In this document: positions 47,493-58,825 of the stretch, one piece after another
How positions within the stretch are numbered: the first letter of the stretch is position 1
Layout: every line of letters starts with the position of its first letter
DNA from: Halobacteriales archaeon QS_4_70_19
GTDB lineage: Archaea; Halobacteriota; Halobacteria; Halobacteriales; Haloarculaceae
DNA: 64,000 nucleotides
Assembly (NCBI GenBank): GCA_003020985.1
Contig: PXRM01000026.1
Location: forward strand, 1-64,000
Direction: 5' to 3'
Notes under the pieces: generated by a model
The model's database searches: none
Told to the model about the DNA's origin: nothing
The model's input: only the letters and a program-made list of their open reading frames with translations
Translations under genes and position numbers: made by a program

Positions 47493-48359
47493 TCACAGGG
47501 TCTCGGCATCGACCACGTCGTAGCCCAGGTCGCCGTCGCGGAGCGCGTCGGTGATCGCCGACAGCTCCGTGACGCTGGCGACGACGAGTACGTCGAGCCC
47601 GCGATGTGCTGCCTCCGCCACCGCGGCGGGGACGCCGAACCGGATGTCCGGGTCGAGGTCGGCCCGGGAGACGGCCGCGAGTGCCTCGCCGCCGGCCACC
47701 GCGAGCAGGTCCACGTCCGTCGTGCGCGCGGCGAGCGCGTCGGCGTCGACCGCACCGCTGCCCCCCTCGTGGACCCGCGGGACGCTGACGACGCGGACCT
47801 CGCCCCACTCGTAGTCGACGAGTCCCTCGAACTCCGTGACGCCGACGTCCTCGCCGACCCCGGCCGACGTGACGGCGACGCCGGTGGCGCTACCGGCGCT
47901 GCCGGGTGTCGCCCGGAGGACGCCGTCGCGCATCGACAGGGAGACGGGCTGTCCCTCCTCGATGGTGGCCGTCGCGAGCGCCGTGTCCACCTCCACCCGG
48001 CCGAGCACGTCCTCGGAGACGTGGCTGACGTAGTCCCGGAGCGCCTCCGTCCGGGACATCAGCCAGTCGACGCCCTCGTTGGTCACCTCGTAGCGCCCCC
48101 GGCCGTGCTTCTCGACGTATCCCTCCGCAACGAGCCCCTGGAGGTAGTCGCTGACGGCCTGGGCGGTGACGCCGATGGCGTCGGCGACCTCCTGCTGGCT
48201 CACCGCCGGCTGGCGCTGGGCGATCTCCACCAGGATCTGGTAGCGGGTCGCGTCGCGCTTGCTCCGGAGTACCCCCGCACGGTCGCCGGCGGTCGTCGGA
48301 CCGCTGTCCCCGGCCGGCGTCGATCCGTCGCCCGCCTCGTCGCCGCTCATGTCGGTCAT
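47493..48359 (-). CDS. MarR/ArsR-like winged-helix regulator with C-terminal ligand domain (288 aa)
   Basis: Winged helix at residues about 38-100: RYQILVEIAQRQPAVSQQEV ADAIGVTAQAVSDYLQGLVA, wing KHGRGRYEVTNEG. The remaining about 190 residues are an alpha/beta domain (GVAVTSAGVGEDVGVTEFEG ... SRADLDPDIRFGVPAAVAEA AHRGLDVLVVASVTELSAIT) of a type conserved in haloarchaeal and methanogen regulators, likely binding a small ligand. Two close starts (48359 MTDM and 48350 MSGD). Lies next to the cobalamin locus but divergent by gene order and not necessarily linked. Confidence 0.82.
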   Translation of the reverse strand: MTDMSGDEAGDGSTPAGDSGPTTAGDRAGVLRSKRDATRYQILVEIAQRQPAVSQQEVADAIGVTAQAVSDYLQGLVAEGYVEKHGRGRYEVTNEGVDWLMSRTEALRDYVSHVSEDVLGRVEVDTALATATIEEGQPVSLSMRDGVLRATPGSAGSATGVAVTSAGVGEDVGVTEFEGLVDYEWGEVRVVSVPRVHEGGSGAVDADALAARTTDVDLLAVAGGEALAAVSRADLDPDIRFGVPAAVAEAAHRGLDVLVVASVTELSAITDALRDGDLGYDVVDAETL

Positions 48360-48486
48360 GGAGGCAGCGCTGTGCAAGTAACTTTGGGAGTCGACACCCG
48401 AATCGCACGGCTCGCGCACTCGCGGCGGTACACTGCTTGTCTTCGGACAACCCGGGTTGTGTGGCGGTCGGGAGTAGTTGTAGAAG

Positions 48487-48804: not shown

Positions 48805-49183
48805 CGGCGGCAACCACTGGAACGTCCAGTGAACTCCTTCCGCTCCGTATATCCGGACACGTTTGCGCTCGTTACACCTGGTATTGACAGGATATTCGGC
48901 CGTGGAACGTGCGTAACCGGTGGCTGGGAACAGTTCGTCCTGTCCGTCGTCATCGACTCGGATAGTTACTATGTTATCGACATATATCGAAATTATGTGG
49001 TAGAAAGATGAGATAATATATCTATACCGGGCAAAGGCACCTTCTCGGCCCCTTCCCGTCCCAGTCCTCTCCGGCGAGGACCAGTCGAGATGACCGAGCC
49101 GACTGAACTGCCAGGATAGCACAAGCTAGCAGGCATTAACACAACCAAAATTGTTTTGTGCTCCACGCTGCTTTCATTACGCC
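48805..49183. promoter_or_regulatory. Upstream region of the cobalamin operon with an inverted repeat
   Basis: About 380 bases without a gene. Includes an AT-rich block (about 48955-49030), a copy of GGCCCCTTCCCGTCCCAG (49047-49064) matching the palindromic elements downstream, and inverted repeats near the cbiT start: AGCACAA (49118-49124) with TTGTGCT (49156-49162), and CACAA/TTGTG (49140-49160) around CCAAAATTGTT. The last could be an operator overlapping the promoter. No cobalamin riboswitch (B12 box) was recognised. Confidence 0.45.
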
Positions 49184-49783
49184 ATGCCGAGGGTAGCGCT
49201 TCCCCACGACGCGAAGGCGGGACCGACGAAACCGGAGGTTCGGGCGGTCACACTATCGAAACTGGCGCTCGACCCGGCGGACCACTTCGCCGAGGTCGGG
49301 TCCTGCACCGGCGCGGTGACCGTTGAGGCCGCGCGGCGCGCCGGTCGGGTAACGGCGCTGGAACGCAAGCCCGAGCGGCTGGCGACGACGCGGAAGAACC
49401 TGGCCGCGAACGGCGTCCCCGTCGCGGAGGCATCGGAGTCGGCGGTCGCCACCGACGGCGGCGCCGCGGCGGCCGACCCCGCGCCCGTCACACTCCGCGA
49501 GGCCGAGGCCCCCGCGGGGCTCCCGGACGACGCCGACGCGCTGTTCCTGGGCGGGAGCCGCAACTACGCGGCCGTCCTCGACCACGCCGTCGAGACTGGC
49601 GTCGGGACGGTCGTGATGAACGTCTCCCGGCTGGAGGTGGCGGGCGACGCCGTCCGGGCGTTCCGCGAGCGCGACCTCCTGGACGAGGTCTGCCAGTTCC
49701 AGGTGAGCCACGGCTACGAGCTGGCCGGCGCGACGAGCTTCGACGCGGACAACCCGGTCTACTGCATCGTGGGGAGCGCGTGA
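49184..49783 (+). CDS. cbiT: CbiT: cobalt-precorrin-6B C15-methyltransferase (decarboxylating) (199 aa)
   Basis: Class I SAM methyltransferase. The CbiT N-terminus LPHDAKAGPTKPEVRAVTLS is diagnostic, followed by the SAM motif FAEVGSCTGAVTVEAARRAG and ALERKPERLATTRKNL, GGSRNYAAVLDHAVE. Methylates C15 and decarboxylates the C12 acetate of cobalt-precorrin-6B/7. First gene of the cob operon; overlaps cbiL by 4 bases (GTGA). Confidence 0.95.
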   Translation: MPRVALPHDAKAGPTKPEVRAVTLSKLALDPADHFAEVGSCTGAVTVEAARRAGRVTALERKPERLATTRKNLAANGVPVAEASESAVATDGGAAAADPAPVTLREAEAPAGLPDDADALFLGGSRNYAAVLDHAVETGVGTVVMNVSRLEVAGDAVRAFRERDLLDEVCQFQVSHGYELAGATSFDADNPVYCIVGSA

Positions 49784-50640
49784 CCCTCTACGGTGTCGGC
49801 CTGGGCCCCGGCGACGCGGGCCTGGTCACGGTGCGGGGCCGCGAGGTGTTGCAGGAGGCCGAGGTGGTCTACTCGCCCGGCCGGCTCTCCCGGTCGGTCG
49901 CGACCGAACACGTCCCCGAGTCGCGCATCGGCGACCTCGACTTCCCGATGACGCGCGACGAGGAGGAACTGCGGGCGGCGTGGCGGGAGGCCGCCGCGGA
50001 GATCGCCCCGCCGGCCCGCGACGGGACCGTCGCGTTCGTCACGCTGGGCGACCCGAACGTCTACTCCACCTTCGGTCACCTCCGCCGGACGCTGGACGCG
50101 TTCCACCCGGACGTGGCCCTCGAGGTGGTACCGGGCGTGAGCGCGCTCACCGCGTTCGCCACCGCGCTCGGGGTCGAGGTCGCCGCGGGGTCGAGCATCG
50201 CGCTCCGCGAGGCCGCCCGCGGCGCCGCCCCGACCGGCCCGGACCGGATGGTCCTGTTCAAGGTGACCGACGCGCCCGCCACCCACGCCGGCCTGACGGA
50301 GGCGGGCTACGAGGTGACCTACGGCCGCCGGCTGTTCATGGAGCAGGGTGAGACGCTCGTCACGGACGACCCGACGGCCCTCGACGAGCGGGACTACTAC
50401 ACGCTCGCGTACGCCGAGCGCCCGGAGGCCCGCGTCGAGCAGGCCACCGACGCGGAGACGGTCTCCTCCATCGGGAAGGACCTCGAGGAGCTGATCCCCC
50501 TGACCCGCAGGCGGCCATCGACGAGGCGTCGGCCGCCCGCGCGACCGAGCGCGACCCCCGCGTGTACGACTACACGGCCGGCGACGACCAGGAGGGAATC
50601 CCCTTCGTCGGCGCCGGCCCGGGCGACCCGCGGCTGCTGA
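49780..50640 (+). CDS. cbiL: CbiL: (cobalt-)precorrin-2 C20-methyltransferase, C-terminus rewritten by a duplication (286 aa)
   Basis: Tetrapyrrole methylase: MTLYGVGLGPGDAGLVTVRG, substrate/SAM loops FVTLGDPNVYSTFGHLRR and VVPGVSALTAFATALGVEV. GTG start. The native sequence continues to about YYTLAYAERPEARVEQ (residue about 217). From 50445 the reading frame enters a 59-bp perfect copy of cbiF sequence (TDAETVSSIGKDLEELIPL), loses any normal end and runs out of frame through the start of cbiF to 50640. The catalytic body is intact, so activity may survive. Confidence 0.92.
   Translation: MTLYGVGLGPGDAGLVTVRGREVLQEAEVVYSPGRLSRSVATEHVPESRIGDLDFPMTRDEEELRAAWREAAAEIAPPARDGTVAFVTLGDPNVYSTFGHLRRTLDAFHPDVALEVVPGVSALTAFATALGVEVAAGSSIALREAARGAAPTGPDRMVLFKVTDAPATHAGLTEAGYEVTYGRRLFMEQGETLVTDDPTALDERDYYTLAYAERPEARVEQATDAETVSSIGKDLEELIPLTRRRPSTRRRPPARPSATPACTTTRPATTRRESPSSAPARATRGC
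50445..50503 (+). repeat. 59-bp direct repeat, copy 1 (at the cbiL/cbiF junction)
   Basis: Perfectly identical to 50729-50787, offset 284 bases. Copy 2 lies in frame inside cbiF and encodes conserved cbiF residues, so copy 1 is the invader. Read in the cbiF frame, the sequence just after copy 1 (DPQAAIDEASAARATERDPR) looks like the natural N-terminus of cbiF, so the original stop of cbiL and start of cbiF have been replaced. Confidence 0.95.
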
Positions 50641-51377
50641 CGGTCGCCGGCCGCGACCTGCTGGCGGAGGCGGACCTCGTGGTCCACGCCGGCTCGCTGG
50701 TCAACAGCGAACTCCTGGAGGCGTACTGCACCGACGCGGAGACGGTCTCCTCCATCGGGAAGGACCTCGAGGAGCTGATCCCCCTGATGCGGGACTCCTA
50801 CGAGGCCGGCGAGACGGTCGTCCGCCTCCACAGCGGCGACCCGGCGGTGTACGGCGCCGCCCTCGAACAGATGGACGCGCTGGAGCACGAGGGCGTCCCG
50901 ACCTACATCGTCCCCGGCGTCACCTCCGCGTTCGCCGCGGCGGCGACGCTGCGCACTCAGCTCACCCTCAACGGCGCGGCCAACCACGTCGCCTTCACCC
51001 GGCCACAGGGGAAGACCCTCGACGCCGAGGACGACCACATCGCGGACTTCGTCGGGATGGGCGACGTGACGACCTGCATCTACCTGGGGACCCACGCGGT
51101 CCCGGAGACGATGGACCGGCTCGTCGACGACGGCGTCGACCCCGAGACGCCCGTCGCAGTCGTCTACCACGCCTCCTGGCCCGACGAGGACGTCCTGACG
51201 GGGACGGTCGCGACCATCGGCGGCGAGATCGAGGCCGCCGGCTACCGGGCCTCGGCGATGGTGGTCATCGGCGACGCCGTCGGCGCCGGCGACTACGAGC
51301 GGTCCTACCTGTACGGCGGCTGGGCGAACCGTGGCGAGGACGGCGGAGACGGCGATGAGGAGGTGGAGGCCGACTGA
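50562..51377 (+). CDS. cbiF: CbiF: cobalt-precorrin-4 C11-methyltransferase (271 aa as annotated)
   Basis: GVPTYIVPGVTSAFAAAATL, HSGDPAVYGAALEQMDALEH, GDVTTCIYLGTHAV and the N-terminal FVGAGPGDPRLLTVAGRDLL mark CbiF. The first available start is GTG at 50562 (VYDYTAGDDQEG), inside what is normally the N-terminal extension; the usual start was lost in the duplication. The core is complete from FVGAGPGDP onwards, so the shortened form should still fold. C-terminus acidic. Confidence 0.93.
   Translation: MYDYTAGDDQEGIPFVGAGPGDPRLLTVAGRDLLAEADLVVHAGSLVNSELLEAYCTDAETVSSIGKDLEELIPLMRDSYEAGETVVRLHSGDPAVYGAALEQMDALEHEGVPTYIVPGVTSAFAAAATLRTQLTLNGAANHVAFTRPQGKTLDAEDDHIADFVGMGDVTTCIYLGTHAVPETMDRLVDDGVDPETPVAVVYHASWPDEDVLTGTVATIGGEIEAAGYRASAMVVIGDAVGAGDYERSYLYGGWANRGEDGGDGDEEVEAD
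50729..50787 (+). repeat. 59-bp direct repeat, copy 2 (within cbiF)
   Basis: The source copy: encodes TDAETVSSIGKDLEELIPLM in frame with conserved CbiF text. See copy 1 at 50445-50503. Confidence 0.95.
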
Positions 51378-51602: not shown

Positions 51603-52598
51603 ATGAGCACGGACAGCAACAGCGGCACGGCGGACGACGCATCGGACGACAGCTCGGGCGGGCACTGCTCGACCCCGGACAGCGACGGCGAGGTGGCCGA
51701 GGAGATCGCCATCGTCGCCTTCGAGCGCAAGTGGGACACCGCCGAGGAGATCCGCGAGGGCATCGGCGACCGCTACGAGGCCATCGACCTGCTCGAGTAC
51801 CACGGCGACGTGTTCGCCGAGCACTGGGGCGAGTACGACTGCTTCGTCGGCCTGATGGCCAGCGGCATCGCGATGCGCAAGACCGCCGGCCTGCTCGACG
51901 ACAAGTGGGAGGACCCGGCGGTCGTCGTGGTCGACGAGGAACTGACGTGGGCCATCCCGCTGACGGGCGGTCACCACGGTGCTAACCAGGTGGCCGACGA
52001 CCTCGCGTCGATGGGTGCGGTGCCCGCGATGACCACCGCCAGCGAGGCGGCCGGCAAGCAGGGCGTCGAGGAGCGCGCGAGGGCGCTGGACGCCCACGTC
52101 GTCAACGGCGACTCGACGGTCGCGACGAACCTCGCCGTGCTGGACGAGGAGCTGGGACCGGTCGCCCGGCTGGACGGCCCTGCGGCGGTCGTGGCTGACG
52201 ACGACGTGACGGTCCTGAAGCGCAACTCGGACGACGGCGTCGTCCTCGGGACGGGGAGCGTCGCGGGGGCCGACGCCGAGCAGTTCGAGGCGGCCTGGCG
52301 CGAGGCGCTCGACGGGACGGACTACACCCTGGCCGACGTGGAGTTCGTCGCCACGGGCACCCGGAAGGCCGAGGAGGCGGGACTGCTCGAAGCGGCCGAG
52401 CAGTTGGCCCTCGGCGTTGTCGCCTTCGAGAAGGACACGCTGGAGGAGTTCGAGGGGCCGACGCCGTCGCGCTCGCGTGAACTCATCGGCTGGCCGGGTA
52501 TCGCGGAGGCGTCGGCCATCGCCGGTGGCCGCGAGCACGACCTGCTCGTCGAGAAGACCAGCCACGAGGACGCCGTCACGGTGGCGGTCGGCCGATGA
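51603..52598 (+). CDS. cbiG: CbiG: cobalt-precorrin-5A hydrolase (331 aa)
   Basis: FERKWDTAEEIREGIGDRYE at the N-terminus, GLMASGIAMRKTAGLLDDKW EDPAVVVVDEELTWAIPLTG GHHGANQVADDLASMGAVPA in the central domain, and FVATGTRKAEEAGLLEAAEQ in the C-terminal CbiG_C domain. Opens the lactone ring and releases acetaldehyde from cobalt-precorrin-5A. N-terminal about 30 residues are acidic and disordered. cbiH1 begins inside its stop (ATGA overlap). Confidence 0.94.
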   Translation: MSTDSNSGTADDASDDSSGGHCSTPDSDGEVAEEIAIVAFERKWDTAEEIREGIGDRYEAIDLLEYHGDVFAEHWGEYDCFVGLMASGIAMRKTAGLLDDKWEDPAVVVVDEELTWAIPLTGGHHGANQVADDLASMGAVPAMTTASEAAGKQGVEERARALDAHVVNGDSTVATNLAVLDEELGPVARLDGPAAVVADDDVTVLKRNSDDGVVLGTGSVAGADAEQFEAAWREALDGTDYTLADVEFVATGTRKAEEAGLLEAAEQLALGVVAFEKDTLEEFEGPTPSRSRELIGWPGIAEASAIAGGREHDLLVEKTSHEDAVTVAVGR

Positions 52599-53494
52599 GC
52601 GCCGACGCCGAGGACGGGGAGGGCGAGTTCGACCTCGACGGCGAGGTCGTCCCCGAGTCCGAGTACGGCACGCTGTACGTCGTCGGCATCGGCCCCGGCC
52701 TGCCCGACGAGATGACCCAGCGCGCCCGCGACGTGATCCGGACCGCGGACTGCGTGGTCGCGTCGAACCTCTACCAGGAGTTCCTCCGGAAGGACGGCAC
52801 CCTGCCGCCGGGGGACCGGACCGACGAGGACGGCGTCTTCGAGCGCCCGGACGGGTCGACCGGCGAACTCGTCCGGTCCTCGATGGGCAGGCAGGTGGAA
52901 CTGGCGAAGGAGGCGTTCGCCCGCGTGCGCCGCGGCGAGGACGTGGCCCACGTCTCCGGCGGCGACCCGAACGTGTACGGCAAGAGCGACCTCGTGTTCA
53001 CGATGGCCGAGGCCGAGGGCGCGACGGACGTGCCCATCGAGATCGTTCCGGGTGTCACGGCCGCCCTGGGGCTGGCTGGTAACCTCGGCGCGCCCCTCTC
53101 CAACGACTTCTGCACCGTCTCGCTGTCGGACAAGTGGCGGGGCTGGGCGGAGATCGAGGAGAAACTGCGGGCCGCCGCCATCGCCGGGTTCGTCGTCGTC
53201 CTCTACAACTGCTGGCGCGACTACGAGCGCGCCATCGACACCCTCCGGGAGGAGCGGGCCGACGACGTGCCCGTCGCCATCGTCAACGACGCCGGCCGCG
53301 GCGAGGCCGGGCGCAACCTGGAGGGCGAGACGTTCACCATCACGACGCTGGGCGAGGCCGACCAGCACGACGAGGAGGTCGGCGGGATGGGCACCTCCAT
53401 CCTCGTCGGCACCCACGAGACCGAGGTCTGGCGCAACGACCACCGCGAGTACCTCGTCACGCCCCGCGGCGGGCGCGACGTGGAGGACTTCTGA
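52595..53494 (+). CDS. cbiH1: CbiH-type cobalt-precorrin-3B C17-methyltransferase, copy 1 (299 aa)
   Basis: Tetrapyrrole methylase: LYVVGIGPGLPDEMTQRARD, HVSGGDPNVYGKSDLVFTMA, IVPGVTAALGLAGNLGAPLS and NDFCTVSLSDKWRGWAEIEE. Haloarchaea carry two adjacent CbiH-like genes; this is the one with an inserted loop around DRTDEDGVFERPDGSTGE. It may carry the ring-contraction step, the division of labour between H1 and H2 being unknown from sequence. 4-bp overlap with cbiG. Confidence 0.92.
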   Translation: MSADAEDGEGEFDLDGEVVPESEYGTLYVVGIGPGLPDEMTQRARDVIRTADCVVASNLYQEFLRKDGTLPPGDRTDEDGVFERPDGSTGELVRSSMGRQVELAKEAFARVRRGEDVAHVSGGDPNVYGKSDLVFTMAEAEGATDVPIEIVPGVTAALGLAGNLGAPLSNDFCTVSLSDKWRGWAEIEEKLRAAAIAGFVVVLYNCWRDYERAIDTLREERADDVPVAIVNDAGRGEAGRNLEGETFTITTLGEADQHDEEVGGMGTSILVGTHETEVWRNDHREYLVTPRGGRDVEDF

Positions 53495-53498
53495 GATC

Positions 53499-54506
53499 AT
53501 GAGCACCGAGAACACCGACACCACGACCGAGGCATCGACTGAAAGCGACTGCGGCGCGACGAGCGCCGCGTCGACAGAGAGCAAGTGCGGCGCATCCACC
53601 GACACGACCGACGAGACGGGGAGCAAGTGCGGCGCGTCCTCCTCGTCCTCGTCATCGTCGTCGGGCTGTGGCGCCTCGAAGTCCGAGACGACCGACGAGA
53701 ACGTGAGCGCGGCCGCCGCGGACTTCGAGGGCGAGCCGGGGCGGCTCGTCGCCGTCGGGCTGGGGCCGGGCCACGCCGAGGGGATGACCCAGCGCGCGAA
53801 GACCGCGCTCCTCGAAGCGGAGCACATCGTCGGCTACACCACCTACATCGACCTGCTGCCCGACGAGGTCGTCGAGCAGGCCGACGAGCTGTACGACACG
53901 CCGATGTGCGGCGAGGTCTCCCGCACCGAGGAGGCCGTCGACCGCACCCTCGCCGGGAACCACGTCGCCATCGTCGGCAGTGGCGACCCGAACGTCTACG
54001 CGCTGGGCGGGCTCGCGCTAGAGATCGTCGAGTCGAAGGGCACCACCCCCAGCGCCGTCGACTTCGAGGTCGTCCCCGGCGTTCCCGCCGCGCAGTCCTG
54101 CGCCGCGCGGGTCGGCGCCCCGCTGGTCAACGACACGGTCACCGTCTCGCTGTCGGACCACCTCACCCCCATGGCGGACATCGAGTCCCGGCTGGCGGCG
54201 GTCGCGCCGGAGGGGTTCACCATCGCCATCTACAACCCCTGGAGCCGGAAGCGCCGGGAGAACTGGGAGCGCTGCTGTGACATCCTGCTGGAGCACCGCA
54301 GCGCCGACGTGCCCGTCGGCGTGGTCCACGGCGCCGGCCGCGAGGACGAGCAGGTCGAGATCGTCGAGCTGGGCGAACTGAAGGCACTCGGCGAGACCGA
54401 CCTCGTCGACATGACCACGACCGTCCTCGTGGGCAACGAGGAGACGTACGTGCGGGACGGCCGGATGGTGACCCCCCGTGGCTACGAATCGAAGTACGAC
54501 TACTGA
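53499..54506 (+). CDS. cbiH2: CbiH-type C17-methyltransferase, copy 2, with cysteine-repeat N-terminus (335 aa)
   Basis: Methylase body from about residue 80: LVAVGLGPGHAEGMTQRAKT, AIVGSGDPNVYALGGLALEI, VVPGVPAAQSCAARVGAPLV and DTVTVSLSDHLTPMADIESR, more like classical CbiH than copy 1. The first about 70 residues are Ser/Thr/Glu-rich with four Cys-Gly-Ala units (DCGATS, KCGAST, KCGASS, GCGAS). The start at 53499 is set by position 4 bases after the cbiH1 stop. The Cys units may hold a metal (inference). Confidence 0.92.
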   Translation: MSTENTDTTTEASTESDCGATSAASTESKCGASTDTTDETGSKCGASSSSSSSSSGCGASKSETTDENVSAAAADFEGEPGRLVAVGLGPGHAEGMTQRAKTALLEAEHIVGYTTYIDLLPDEVVEQADELYDTPMCGEVSRTEEAVDRTLAGNHVAIVGSGDPNVYALGGLALEIVESKGTTPSAVDFEVVPGVPAAQSCAARVGAPLVNDTVTVSLSDHLTPMADIESRLAAVAPEGFTIAIYNPWSRKRRENWERCCDILLEHRSADVPVGVVHGAGREDEQVEIVELGELKALGETDLVDMTTTVLVGNEETYVRDGRMVTPRGYESKYDY

Positions 54507-54507
54507 G

Positions 54508-54756
54508 ATGCCCGACAGATACCGCGTCACCGTCGACAAGGGGGCGTGCGACGGCATCTTCGCCTGCCTCGTCCGGGACGACCGGCTGGTGGAGGCCGAC
54601 GACGGCCTCGCCGGCTTCGACCCCGACGAGGCCGAGGCCGTCGCGCGGACCGACGACGGCGTGACGGCGACGTTCGAGGACGACCGGCTCGACGAGGCCG
54701 AGGGTGCTGCGGCCGCCTGCCCGCCGAGCGCGATTTCCGTGGAGGTACTGGAATGA
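54508..54756 (+). CDS. Cobalamin-operon ferredoxin-like protein (82 aa)
   Basis: MPDRYRVTVDKGACDGIFAC LVRDDRLVEADD ... AAAACPPSAISVEVLE. Three cysteines (C14, C20, C71) in the single-cluster ferredoxin pattern (CDGxxxC ... CPPSAI). Starts one base after the cbiH2 TGA. Conserved in haloarchaeal cob operons; presumably supplies electrons for a reductive step in the pathway (such as cobalt reduction). Confidence 0.88.
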   Translation: MPDRYRVTVDKGACDGIFACLVRDDRLVEADDGLAGFDPDEAEAVARTDDGVTATFEDDRLDEAEGAAAACPPSAISVEVLE

Positions 54757-54829: not shown

Positions 54830-55528
54830 ATGAGCGACGCCCCGGCCTCCCCCGGCGACCACGACCCGCCGCGGGACCTGCTCTCGGCGCACCCCGAGAC
54901 GGCGTACTTCTGGGGCCGCGTTGCGGGCGACGGCGACCTCACGGGCGAGCGGGTCCGCGTGCGGGCGGCCGAGGAGTCGGTCGCCCGTCGGCTCGCCGCC
55001 ATCGCCGGCGACGACGGACGGCTCGCGGGCGAGCGCACGGTCGAGCGGCCCTACGCGCACGACGCCTCGCTGGCCCGCGTCGAGGACGAGTACACCGTGA
55101 AGGTGTTCGGCGGGGCCGCCGACCGCGCCGCCGCCGCGTTCGGCCTCCCCATCGACGGCACCGACGGCGGCTACCGGCTGGACGCGCTGGCCGACCACGA
55201 CCGGCAGCTCCTGCGCGGCCTCCTTGAGGCGGCGGGGACCGTCTGCTTCCGCGAGTCCGAGGGCGTCGTGGGTGTCTCCTTCGTCCACGAGGACCGCGCG
55301 CTGCTGGAGTGGGTCCAGGGCGCGCTCGCCGACACCGGCTTCGGCGCCGACGACCTCGCGGAGACCTCCTCGGGTGGCTACTGGTTCGGCGTCGCCGACG
55401 ACGACACGGCGGCGTTCGGCGAGTGGGTGTACGAGGGGAGCGACGACACCGGCCTGTACGCCGACGACCGCCGGACGAAGCTGCTCCGCAGCATCGAGCG
55501 CGCGGCCAGCGTCTCGGAGGCGGACTGA
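54830..55528 (+). CDS. LAGLIDADG-fold protein embedded in the cobalamin operon (232 aa)
   Basis: Two-repeat layout of LAGLIDADG homing endonucleases. First motif at residues 27-35 F-W-G-R-V-A-G-D-G (conserved G and catalytic-position D); second motif at 128-136 L-R-G-L-L-E-A-A-G, with Ala in place of the second catalytic Asp. Each is followed by the expected strand pattern (RVRVRAAEESVARRLAAI; CFRESEGVVGVSFVHEDRAL LEWVQGALADTGF), and the end GEWVYEGSDDTGLYADDRRT KLLRSIERA matches LAGLIDADG_3-type endings. Single-strand catalytic residue loss suggests a nickase, a DNA-binding regulator (as WhiA arose) or a domesticated remnant. No intein or intron around it. Its function in B12 synthesis is unknown. 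Confidence 0.72.
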   Translation: MSDAPASPGDHDPPRDLLSAHPETAYFWGRVAGDGDLTGERVRVRAAEESVARRLAAIAGDDGRLAGERTVERPYAHDASLARVEDEYTVKVFGGAADRAAAAFGLPIDGTDGGYRLDALADHDRQLLRGLLEAAGTVCFRESEGVVGVSFVHEDRALLEWVQGALADTGFGADDLAETSSGGYWFGVADDDTAAFGEWVYEGSDDTGLYADDRRTKLLRSIERAASVSEAD

Positions 55529-55590: not shown

Positions 55591-55790
55591 CGGGTGGGAA
55601 TGGAAGGGGCTGGAGGCTTCCGAGATGGTCCCGACCGACGGCTCGCCAGCGGACGAAACCATCTCGGAAGCCCCCGCCGGTTCGGGGAAGGCGGGCGACG
55701 CAAGCACTGGACCGGAGCGAGCGCAGCGAGCGGAGGGAAGCGCGCGGCGAGCTCCCCGACCCGAACCGGCGGCCCCTTCCAGTCCCGCCC
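55591..55790. repeat. Palindromic intergenic element, copy 2 (before cbiX), about 200 bp nested inverted repeats
   Basis: Outer arms CGGGTGGGAATGGAAGGGGC (55591-55610) and GGCCCCTTCCAGTCCCGCCC (55771-55790) pair almost perfectly. Inside: GCTTCCGAGATGGT (55616-55629) with ACCATCTCGGAAGC (55658-55671), then GCCGGTTCGG (55676-55685) with CCGAACCGGC (55761-55770). The next gene starts right after TCACGGTGAG, as copy 1 ends. No coding potential. Confidence 0.75.
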
Positions 55791-55820: not shown

Positions 55821-57071
55821 GTGAGCGACGCCCCGCCGACACAGGTCCCGACCGACGCACCGGACCTCCCGGACCGGCTGGACGACGAGGCAGTCCTCCT
55901 CGTGGGCCACGGTTCCCGGCGCGAGAAGTCGAACGAGCAGGTCCGCGAGCTGGCGGTCATGCTGGAGGAGCGACTCGGTCTCCCCGTGGACGCGGGGTTC
56001 CTGGAACTCGCCGAGCCGTCCATCCCGGAGGCGCTGGGGGGACTCGTGCCCAGTGTGTCCCGCGTGACGGTGGTCCAGCTGTCGCTGTTCGCCGCGAGCC
56101 ACGTCAAGAACGACGTGCCCCTCGCCGTGGAGCGGGTCCGCGCGGACCACCCGGAAGCGACGTTCCACGTCGGCGGCCACCTCGGCGTCCACCCCGCGCT
56201 GGTGGACCTGCTGGACGACCGCGCGGCCGCCGTGGAGGCGGAACTCGGCGTCGACCGCGCCGAGGACGAGGTGGCCGTGGCGCTCTGTGCGCGCGGCTCC
56301 TCGGACCCGGACGCGAACGCGGACGTGCACAAACTGGCGCGGCTGCTCCACGAGGGCCGAGCGTTCGCCCGCGTCGATCCGACCTTCATCGGCGTCACGG
56401 AGCCGACGCTGGACGAGACGCTCCACCGGCTGGCGAAGTCCCGCCCGGACGCCGTCGTCGTGCTGCCGTATATGCTCGGCGACGGGGTGCTGACGGGACG
56501 CATCCGCGACGGTGCCGACGAGTTCGACGCCGACTACCCGTACGTCGACGCGGCCGCGGGCGACCCCCTCGGCACGGACGACCGGCTGCTGGACGTGCTC
56601 GGCGACCGCTGGCAGGCCGCCCGCACGGACAGCGTCGAGATGTCCTGTGACACGTGCAAGTACAAGGTGGAACTCGACGGCTACGAGCGGGACGTGGGCG
56701 GCGCGCGCGCGACGCTGCGCGCGCTCACGCACCTCGAGACCCACGCCGACCGCGAGGACGTGGGCGACGACCCGCACGTCCACGACCACCCCGAGAAGCA
56801 CGTCGCCGTCTGCACGAACACGACCTGCGCCGCCGACGGCGCGCCCGCCGTCCTCGAACGGCTCCGGCAGGGGGTCCGCGACTCGGACGCCTGCGACGCG
56901 CGCGTCACCCGCACGTCCTGTCTGGGCCGCTGTGGCGACGGCCCCATCGTCGCCGTCTACCCGGACGGCGTCTGGTACGGCGACGTCGAGGCCGACGACG
57001 CCGAGCGGGTCGTCGGCGACCACCTCGACCGCGGCCGCATCGTGAGCGACCTCGTGGACGGCACGCTGTAG
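55821..57071 (+). CDS. cbiX: CbiX: sirohydrochlorin cobaltochelatase with C-terminal 2Fe-2S thioredoxin-like domain (416 aa)
   Basis: Tandem chelatase halves: LLVGHGSRREKSNEQVRELA and GHLGVHPALVDLLDD (first), LCARGSSDPDANADVHKLAR and VVVLPYMLGDGVLTGRI (second), with metal-coordinating His in HGSR. Inserts Co into sirohydrochlorin early in the pathway. After a Cys stretch (MSCDTCKYKVELDGYE) the C-terminus is a 2Fe-2S ferredoxin: CTNTTCAADGAPAVLERL and TRTSCLGRCGDGPIVAVYPD. GTG start at 55821; longer frame upstream is repeat-derived. Confidence 0.93.
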   Translation: MSDAPPTQVPTDAPDLPDRLDDEAVLLVGHGSRREKSNEQVRELAVMLEERLGLPVDAGFLELAEPSIPEALGGLVPSVSRVTVVQLSLFAASHVKNDVPLAVERVRADHPEATFHVGGHLGVHPALVDLLDDRAAAVEAELGVDRAEDEVAVALCARGSSDPDANADVHKLARLLHEGRAFARVDPTFIGVTEPTLDETLHRLAKSRPDAVVVLPYMLGDGVLTGRIRDGADEFDADYPYVDAAAGDPLGTDDRLLDVLGDRWQAARTDSVEMSCDTCKYKVELDGYERDVGGARATLRALTHLETHADREDVGDDPHVHDHPEKHVAVCTNTTCAADGAPAVLERLRQGVRDSDACDARVTRTSCLGRCGDGPIVAVYPDGVWYGDVEADDAERVVGDHLDRGRIVSDLVDGTL

Positions 57072-57111: not shown

Positions 57112-57489
57112 ATGACCTGTCACGAACTCGAAGCCCTGCGACTCGGCCTGATGAACGTCCTCGGAACGACCGACCGGAGCGCCCGCGAGCACGCCGAGAA
57201 GGAGCTGGCGGGGCACCTGGAGGGCCCCGTCGGCGCGCTCGCCGAGGCGGACGACCTCGCGGCCGTCGAGCGCCACCTCGACGCCGCGCTGGTCGACCTG
57301 GAGGAGGCGGTGGCTGCCGCGGACGAGAGCACCGACCGGTACGACTACCTCCGCGGCCGACTCGTGGCAGTGCGCGACGCCGAGCGCGCCGTCCGCCGGC
57401 TCACGAACCAGGGCGAGTCCGTCCTCGACGGGCTGGACGACGCCCACCACCTGCTCCACGAGGCGTTCCCCGTCGATGACGAGGACTGA
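57112..57489 (+). CDS. DUF3209-family protein (125 aa)
   Basis: MTCHELEALRLGLMNVLGTT DRSAREHAEKELAGHLEGPV GALAEADDL ... helical throughout. DUF3209 proteins are found almost only next to haloarchaeal cobalamin genes; no activity known. The last 14 bases overlap the start of the PQQ-propeller gene, so the two are coupled. Confidence 0.9.
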   Translation: MTCHELEALRLGLMNVLGTTDRSAREHAEKELAGHLEGPVGALAEADDLAAVERHLDAALVDLEEAVAAADESTDRYDYLRGRLVAVRDAERAVRRLTNQGESVLDGLDDAHHLLHEAFPVDDED

Positions 57490-58825
57490 GTCGCGGGGCG
57501 ACGAGCCCACGAGCGGCGCCGCCCGCCGCGAGCCCGCGACGGTCCCGCTGGGCGACGTGGACCCGGCCCGATCGCGCCACGCCGGCCGGCGGTCGGCCGT
57601 CGCGCTCGTCCCGGGCGATGGCGGGCCGCTTGCCGTCGTCGGCCTCGCCGACGGCACGCTCGTCGCGGTCGCACCGGATGGGACCGAACGCTGGCGACGG
57701 TCCGCCGAGGGTGCGGGCAGCCTCGTCACCCTCGTCTCCTTCGCCGACGGCGTCCTCGTCGGGGAGCGCGGTGCGGCCGGAGCGATCCGTCACCACGACG
57801 CCGCGACCGGCGAGCGGCGGTGGCGCCACGAGAGCGCCGACGAGGTCGGTGACCCCCAGCGCGACAGTCGCTTCTTCCTCCCGTTCGTCGCGAGCGCGGC
57901 CACCGCCAGCGTCGGCGACGCGCCCCGGGCGTACGTCGCCGCGCGCCGGTACGAGCGCTCGGACGACGAGGATTCGCCGCGCCACTTCGAGAGCGCCGTC
58001 TACGCCCTCGGCCCGGACGGGACCGTCGCGTGGCGGTACCGCGCGCAGGCCTCGCCCATCGCCGTCGACGCCGCGTCGGCTGCCGACGGCGACACTCCGG
58101 GTGCACACGTCGCCGTCGCGTACAACCGCTGTCCCGAGCCGGACCGCCACGACGCCGGCCTCGTCGTCCTCGACGCGGCCGACGGGGCCGAGCGGCTGCG
58201 CTGGGACCCCGGTGACGCGATGGCCGACCCCCCGGGCCAGCGCCGGGTCGGCGACGTGTCGCTGACGCCCGACGGCGCCGTGCTGGCGAGCCACGCCGAC
58301 TACCGCGGCTACGCGCTCGACCGGCGGGGCGAGGTGCGCTGGCGGGTCGACCTCGCGCGGCCCGTGGAGCGGTCGGTGGGCGACGGCTCCGATACCGTCT
58401 ACGCTTACCCGAACCACGTCCACGCGACCGCCCGTGGCGCGGTGTTCGTCACGGGGAACACCTACCCCGAGGAGGGGCGGGAGACCGAGGCCAGGCACCC
58501 GCGCGAGCACACCGCGGTCGGCGTCGACGAGTGCGGCGCGGAGCGGTGGAGCGACCCCGTCGGCGGGTTCGCCACCGGCGTCGGCACGGACGCGGGACGC
58601 GTGGCGGTCCCCGCGGCTCAGCACTTCCGCGACCGGGACGCCGCGACCCACGCGCTCCGGACGTTCGACCTCGCCGACGGCCCGAGCGCCGCGGTCGAGA
58701 CCGACGGCGTCGTCACGTGCGCCGCGACCCGTGACGGCCGCGTCGCGGCGGTGGAGGAACCCGTCGTCTACCACGACGAGGGCGTCGAGCACGGCGGCTA
58801 CCGGCTACGGCTGCTCGGTGTCTAG
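57476..58825 (+). CDS. PQQ-like beta-propeller protein of the cobalamin locus (449 aa)
   Basis: Seven or so blades with recurring ALGPDGTVAWRY / HHDAATGERRWRHESA-type text (GTLVAVAPDGTERWRRS, LDRRGEVRWRVDLARPV). No signal peptide, so cytoplasmic. Such proteins occur in haloarchaeal cob loci beside DUF3209; likely a scaffold or a sensor rather than a quinoprotein, since no PQQ-ligand residues stand out. It ends 86 bases before the convergent cbtA stop. Confidence 0.82.
   Translation: MTRTESRGDEPTSGAARREPATVPLGDVDPARSRHAGRRSAVALVPGDGGPLAVVGLADGTLVAVAPDGTERWRRSAEGAGSLVTLVSFADGVLVGERGAAGAIRHHDAATGERRWRHESADEVGDPQRDSRFFLPFVASAATASVGDAPRAYVAARRYERSDDEDSPRHFESAVYALGPDGTVAWRYRAQASPIAVDAASAADGDTPGAHVAVAYNRCPEPDRHDAGLVVLDAADGAERLRWDPGDAMADPPGQRRVGDVSLTPDGAVLASHADYRGYALDRRGEVRWRVDLARPVERSVGDGSDTVYAYPNHVHATARGAVFVTGNTYPEEGRETEARHPREHTAVGVDECGAERWSDPVGGFATGVGTDAGRVAVPAAQHFRDRDAATHALRTFDLADGPSAAVETDGVVTCAATRDGRVAAVEEPVVYHDEGVEHGGYRLRLLGV

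Follow-up and report, generated by a model that had tools for sequence, protein, structure and literature searches.

Among described proteins, those closest in fold to the one considered here are archaeal LAGLIDADG homing endonucleases such as I-Tsp061I and I-DmoI, which are two-repeat monomers of similar size and fold, and WhiA (DUF199), in which the LAGLIDADG fold serves a cellular role. To our knowledge, few LAGLIDADG proteins have given up cutting. WhiA carries a helix-turn-helix (HTH) domain after its LAGLIDADG part. According to PMC4850268, WhiA acts with the iron-sulphur protein WhiB. With respect to gene content, the nearest described system is the cobalamin (cob) cluster of Haloferax volcanii. 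In the available sections of its published account (Pfeiffer and Dyall-Smith 2021; PMC8305020), HVO_B0052, HVO_B0053, HVO_B0055 and HVO_B0056 are the only unassigned genes of this cluster and are called obvious candidates for two pathway gaps; the order given is cbiH2 (B0057), B0056, B0055, cbiX1 (B0054), B0053, B0052, and section 3.3 offers no fold for HVO_B0055. CbiD and CbiJ are likewise described as missing in Halonotius, in the available part of PMC6719526. A cob cluster on plasmid pTT27 of Thermus thermophilus HB8 resembles the locus analysed here in having a cbiG-like gene, cbiX and a DUF3209 gene in a row, and differs from it in having a CbiD gene and a CbiX without a 2Fe-2S match.

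Our subject is a LAGLIDADG-fold protein (hereafter LAG) encoded in a stretch of 64,000 nucleotides from Halobacteriales archaeon QS_4_70_19 (hereafter the window; Table 1). By the order of locus tags, LAG occupies the slot of HVO_B0055, an orthology assigned by position only, and gene order leads us to infer that HVO_B0052, HVO_B0053, HVO_B0055 and HVO_B0056 correspond to the PQQ-repeat, DUF3209, LAG and ferredoxin genes, respectively. The first-pass annotation of this DNA had called LAG an unrecognised factor of the B12 locus. This description does not hold as worded, since the slot has been in print since 2021 (available part of PMC8305020) and five of the eight plasmid records that carry LAG name its product "cobalamin biosynthesis protein". 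In a literature search largely without subscription journals, we found no paper linking the LAGLIDADG fold to cobalamin biosynthesis.

Table 1. Features of the window, in window coordinates
Feature	Position	Strand	Evidence or remark
MarR-like HTH protein with DUF7839	47493-48419	-	candidate reader of the cbiT palindrome
Conserved pseudo-palindrome upstream of cbiT	49135..49160	+	PWM score 43.1; the window's only match over 14 bits
cbiT, first gene of the operon	49184..49783	+	position as annotated cbiT in relatives; start codon inferred by inspection
cbiL	49780..50640	+	NCBIfam cobalt-factor II C20-methyltransferase 1.2e-132, residues 1-227; C-terminal part looks disturbed in the assembly
cbiF	50562..51377	+	NCBIfam cobM_cbiF 2.9e-72, 242.9 bits, below cut-off of 259.65
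cbiG	51603..52598	+	NCBIfam cobalt-precorrin 5A hydrolase 5.3e-141, over cut-off
cbiH1	52595..53494	+	NCBIfam cobJ_cbiH 2.1e-53, below cut-off
cbiH2 (cobJ/cbiH)	53499..54506	+	NCBIfam cobJ_cbiH 8.9e-90, over cut-off
Single-cluster ferredoxin (Fer4_15), directly upstream of LAG	54508..54756	+	Pfam E 4.8e-11
LAG, 232 aa	54830..55528	+	open ORF; catalytic acids unconserved; slot of HVO_B0055
cbiX1, sirohydrochlorin cobaltochelatase with C-terminal 2Fe-2S domain	55821..57071	+	Pfam CbiX 3.3e-49, 2Fe-2S_thioredx 4.2e-8; start codon inferred
DUF3209 protein, relative of TTHB059 (PDB 2ehw)	57112..57489	+	Pfam 4.1e-50; 2ehw E 2.2e-14
PQQ-repeat protein	57476..58825	+	Pfam PQQ_2 1.2e-8

Fold and catalytic positions of LAG

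Two LAGLIDADG motifs had been proposed from the letters of the sequence, and both are found at the claimed places (FWGRVAGDG, residues 27-35; LRGLLEAAG, residues 128-136). A Pfam search of LAG returned a single weak match, to LAGLIDADG_3 at residues 124-171 (E 0.0083; 16.8 bits, below the cut-off of 22.5 bits), and the same family was matched by 29 of the 40 aligned relatives at E up to 1, the best at 4.5e-5. Searches of the PDB with the LAG sequence and the LAG profile gave chance-like matches only (best E 0.34 and 0.12, respectively), and neither the PDB nor the Pfam searches yielded a sequence match to WhiA.

The AlphaFold2 model of LAG, computed from an alignment of 40 of 63 sequences (62 GTDB relatives and the window), has a mean pLDDT of 92.3 and a pTM of 0.89. 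It shows both of the alpha-beta-beta-alpha-beta-beta repeats: the first consists of helix 22-34, strand 41-46, helix 49-58, strands 63-74 and 82-93, and helix 96-104, and the second of helix 117-135, strands 136-141 and 146-153, helix 156-168, strand 184-188, and helix 190-200. When this model was compared with the PDB using Foldseek, 59 matches were obtained at E up to 0.001, and the titles of the best 50 of these 59 all denote LAGLIDADG endonucleases, inteins with such a domain, a maturase or WhiA. The top match is I-Tsp061I (2dch; E 2.1e-8; TM 0.57/0.64), and WhiA is matched through 3hyi (E 1.4e-6) and 8dy9 (E 1.7e-6). The fold assignment of the first-pass annotation is thus borne out by the predicted structure. 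LAG differs from WhiA in its organisms and gene context and in its C-terminal end, which is a single helix (212-231) in the model; a Pfam search found no HTH family in LAG. A further likeness lies in the iron-sulphur partner WhiB, given that the neighbour of LAG is a ferredoxin.

In the LAGLIDADG fold, acids at two motif-end positions do the cutting. The corresponding positions of LAG, 34 and 135, are the final residues of the two motif helices of the model. We gathered 100 family sequences, of which 88 remained once duplicates had been taken out. Asp occupies position 34 in 63 of the 88, the other 25 having Gly, Ser, Ala or Asn there. At position 135, 84 carry Cys, two carry Ala (the window and locus L003), and one each has Ser (L002) and Thr (L106). 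Consequently, the idea that a catalytic Asp had been replaced by Ala in the window survives in part: Ala is present at 135, but the family residue there is Cys, and Asp34 itself is not fixed. A D-to-A change shared by the orthologues is not supported, as Ala at 135 occurs in no sequences other than those of the window and L003, and Ala135 of the window is a local change from Cys. Since four of the 88 sequences, that of the window among them, have another residue (Ala, Ser or Thr) in place of Cys135, a metal site of two Cys residues cannot be essential.

Other positions are fixed. Among the columns inspected, Tyr26, Trp28, Gly29, His77, Arg129, Gly130, Glu133, Gly136, Cys139, Gly148, Ser150, Tyr201, Arg214 and Lys217 are identical in all 88 sequences. 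A LAGLIDADG fold with lost catalytic acids is therefore near certain for LAG, and we count the retained fold, the lost catalytic positions and the fixed residues elsewhere in favour of a non-cutting accessory role.

Gene context and distribution across haloarchaea

A scan of GTDB genome contigs found LAG relatives at 62 loci, with best segments 46 to 94% identical to the window protein, and their titles are haloarchaeal throughout, save one labelled merely Euryarchaeota archaeon. LAG has one match in its own genome. Together with the window, all 63 loci have the gene order cbiH2-LAG-cbiX1 on one strand, and in all 63 a single-cluster ferredoxin, recognised by an HMM built from four sequences, directly precedes LAG. 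In the window, the neighbours that had been claimed from sequence (a ferredoxin before LAG and cbiX after it, all on one strand) are confirmed by Pfam. The ferredoxin was likewise matched in all 30 short LAG loci taken from a survey of 242 genomes of the haloarchaeal class.

In this survey, LAG is present in 123 of 242 genomes and CbiG_N in 127, and all 123 fall within those 127, with LAG in none of the 115 sampled genomes without cbiG. As a rule it occupies a single place per genome, the exceptions being split matches and a lone weak second match. Of 294 genomes sampled from the phylum, 24 gave a LAG match, all of the same order, with one further weak second match in a long frame. Within the searches made, and as judged from sequence, LAG is found only in haloarchaea. 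Orthologues thus sit in cob operons of other haloarchaea, as the constant slot and the presence of LAG in 123 of 127 cbiG genomes show. Altogether, LAG is a dedicated B12-locus protein that belongs as a rule to the cobalt-early cobalamin cluster of haloarchaea, and it is very likely an accessory of this locus.

Several local features of these clusters were also recorded. On Haloarcula rara plasmid NZ_CP119786.1, the LAG-bearing cob cluster occurs twice (L023 and L024). In the window, 60 bases late in the cbiL frame (50443-50502) match CbiF residues 56-75 at 95%, and the frame then continues into CbiL-unlike sequence, which points to a local duplication or an assembly fault in this 82%-complete genome. 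The distance from the LAG stop to the GHGS motif near the CbiX start is 29-125 bases in 60 of 63 loci and 130, 262 and 376 bases in L002, L003 and the window, respectively, where a small imperfect inverted repeat intervenes (window 55612-55675, between LAG and cbiX1). A stretch of the spacer next to this repeat is also present at another place in L003, and other genera are almost gapless there.

The constant slot also bears on whether LAG could be a homing endonuclease that sits in the operon and is, or was until recently, active. It has the fold of one, and the resemblance to I-Tsp061I and I-DmoI ends there: the catalytic acids are not conserved in LAG, whose two motif helices do not regularly end in an acid across the family, and instead of an intron, an intein or a mobile free-standing context LAG has a fixed place between whole genes, usually once per genome (twice in Haloarcula rara) and in the same slot across genera. 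Among viral contigs, 15 stretches matched the sequence pattern and none was confirmed as LAG. In addition, dN/dS is 0.05-0.23 in 10 pairs, which indicates that the gene is kept under purifying selection. The earlier judgement that LAG is not a selfish element is therefore sustained, the selfish-element reading is rejected, and a LAG that still cuts DNA or did so recently is extremely improbable.

Cobalamin clusters without LAG

Four of the 127 cbiG genomes have no LAG: G001 and G007, which belong to one genus, G129, from another family, and G052. With a broader profile and E values up to 1, no LAG turned up in any of these or in G484, and failure of the search is rejected as the reason. In G001, G007 and G129, the cluster reads cbiT-L-F-G-H1-H2-cbiX, with cbiA, cbiC, cbiE, chlID and cobN nearby. 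The DUF3209 gene is absent from these three genomes, and neither the ferredoxin nor the PQQ gene occurs in the cluster regions analysed. The CbiX proteins of these genomes carry a His-rich tail at the C-terminus, and those of G007 and G129 have no Pfam match to the 2Fe-2S domain.

These three genomes keep all twelve cob genes that were checked, which speaks against LAG as a core enzyme. This matters for the candidacy proposed in print, under which LAG, with the ferredoxin, would carry out cobalt-precorrin-6A reduction (CbiJ) or the CbiD methylation. LAG does track the pathway, and the gaps themselves are seen in our survey: CbiJ (PF02571) is over cut-off in 0 of 242 haloarchaeal genomes, with one weak match, and in 3 of 14 control genomes, and CbiD (PF01888) is over cut-off in 0 of 242 and in 6 of 14 controls. 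However, G001, G007 and G129 lack CbiJ, CbiD, LAG and DUF3209, and their clusters contain neither a ferredoxin nor a PQQ gene; the gaps thus occur without LAG, unless other genes fill them in these genomes. LAG itself has no Pfam match to PF02571 or PF01888, and its mean distance between loci (0.37, over 55 loci) exceeds that of five neighbouring cob genes (0.20-0.23), making it more variable than the core enzymes. We know of no reductase or methyltransferase with a LAGLIDADG fold. A gap-filling enzyme is accordingly a rather improbable identity for LAG. The same genomes speak against the four genes as gap-fillers for the whole class, with a different solution in the LAG-less genomes being possible.

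What G001, G007 and G129 also share is the absence of a haem-copper oxidase (COX1), the one oxidase family covered by our search. COX1 is present in all 96 LAG genomes tested (17 of 17 and 79 of 79), out of the 123 that carry LAG. Across 100 cbiG genomes, the association of LAG with COX1 has a Fisher p of 2.5e-5 by genome and 6e-4 with the same-genus pair counted once; with genera as units it is 0.003, one genus standing on both sides. G484, from the genus of G001 and 72% complete, has cbiG and neither LAG nor COX1. Isolates of anaerobic haloarchaea are described as negative in the cytochrome oxidase test in the available part of PMC5437934, which does not mention cobalamin. We count the joint absence of LAG, ferredoxin, DUF3209 and PQQ from the cob clusters of two oxidase-less genera, a correlation, in favour of an oxygen link. 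The contrast rests on just two independent lineages without the oxidase and may reflect shared history; we therefore treat it as a lead.

Two observations weigh on the other side. G052 has COX1, the ferredoxin, DUF3209 and PQQ and lacks LAG, which means that aerobic life does not strictly depend on LAG. Judged by sequence comparison, the pairing of DUF3209 with CbiX extends beyond haloarchaea: the two are neighbours in Thermus thermophilus, and the solved DUF3209 relative TTHB059 (2ehw) is from Thermus. Thermus thermophilus is an aerobe, and its cbiG-cbiX-DUF3209 row, in an annotated stretch that lists neither LAG nor the ferredoxin (the gene table being incomplete), counts against an aerobic accessory. 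An oxygen link for LAG is, on balance, plausible, with about even chances.

The exceptions are informative in another respect. In G052, a second CbiX with a His-rich tail (L100, 9702-10643) lies exactly in the LAG slot, between the ferredoxin and cbiX1. In G021, a divergent LAG lies outside the cob cluster (L102, 3444-6453), between two cation-efflux (CDF) genes and with a rhodanese gene, all on one strand. Both exceptions hint at metals. A His-tailed CbiX is nevertheless ruled out as a strict substitute for LAG, because L031 has both. LAG and the ferredoxin are on different contigs in G021, and the HMM found no ferredoxin beside LAG in G014, so the pair can part. G014 also has two separate partial cob clusters (L105 and L108), and the LAG of the LAG-bearing one contains a low-complexity insert.

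The cbiT element and the proposed role of LAG

Upstream of cbiT, the 9-mer AAAACAATT occurs in 25 of 36 regions, as compared with at most 6 for the top 9-mer in 30 sets obtained by first-order resampling, a control that differs from exact shuffles. The consensus of this element is the pseudo-palindrome TAATACAACCAAAATTGTTTTA, of roughly 22 bp and with an asymmetric centre. A PWM built from 29 sites, the window site included, and tested partly on the same set, finds one strong site in most loci, usually with a score of 40 or more. Weaker second sites lie about 11-15 kb downstream in several loci, and some Haloarcula loci have a second strong site inside the cluster. The element may serve as operator for a B12 or cobalt regulon of haloarchaea.

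It had been suggested that LAG is perhaps a metal-site protein, which may hold, or a DNA-binding regulator of the cob genes. In the latter case, a non-cutting saddle would read the cbiT pseudo-palindrome, perhaps with the ferredoxin as redox input, by analogy with WhiA and WhiB. The precedent of WhiA speaks for this, as do the palindrome before cbiT, which is about right in size and has an asymmetric centre, the net charge of about +4 on the last LAG helix, and the changed centre of the element (CGAT or CGTA for CAAA or CACA) in the LAG-less clusters of G001, G007 and G129. However, G021 and G014 share the changed centre and have LAG. Moreover, all four LAG-less clusters (L098, L099, L100 and L101) keep the element, with scores of 23.7 (twice), 25.7 and 31.0, and L099 has a second copy (24.3) before a gene that we take, from its sequence, to encode a CbiM-like protein. 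Therefore, a different protein must read the element, at least in the LAG-less clusters, and LAG as its sole reader is ruled out. A better candidate is the MarR-like DUF7839 protein: of the 67 loci longer than 14 kb, 28 have its gene upstream of cbiT. The six sheet strands of the family, which would form the DNA saddle, sum to a net charge of about -5, with one slightly positive (charges computed with no control set, for the strands and the last helix alike), and LAG has no HTH family. The suggestion of a regulator is thus weakened by a palindrome kept without LAG and by negative saddle strands, and we consider it unlikely.

The reading that we prefer, tentatively and with slightly less than even confidence, is that LAG is an accessory that lets the cobalt-early pathway run under oxygen. 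In such a scheme, LAG would allow this classically anaerobic pathway to operate in oxygen-respiring cells. It might work with the ferredoxin around CbiX1, and its saddle might bind a cobalt-corrinoid intermediate, a metal or a partner protein in place of DNA; the invariant His77, Glu133 and Cys139 and the near-invariant Cys135 are candidate saddle residues. LAG and the ferredoxin could then hand over cobalt or an intermediate, or keep it reduced. The exact mechanism with the ferredoxin and CbiX1 is a guess. Gene deletion and growth with or without oxygen are feasible in Haloferax volcanii.

In its widest form, which we regard as doubtful, the proposal is that a homing-endonuclease fold was recruited with a ferredoxin for handling a metal or cobalt-corrinoid under oxygen, which would make LAG the first case of a LAGLIDADG saddle that works on a cofactor or partner protein. 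For the haloarchaea, the finding is a LAGLIDADG protein with lost cutting residues that is tied to B12 synthesis in 123 of the 242 genomes sampled. The genomes lacking both LAG and the oxidase suggest that closing the CbiD and CbiJ gaps is not a necessary task of the four unassigned genes of the cob cluster. They point instead to another role, linked to oxygen, which bears on a question left open in print.
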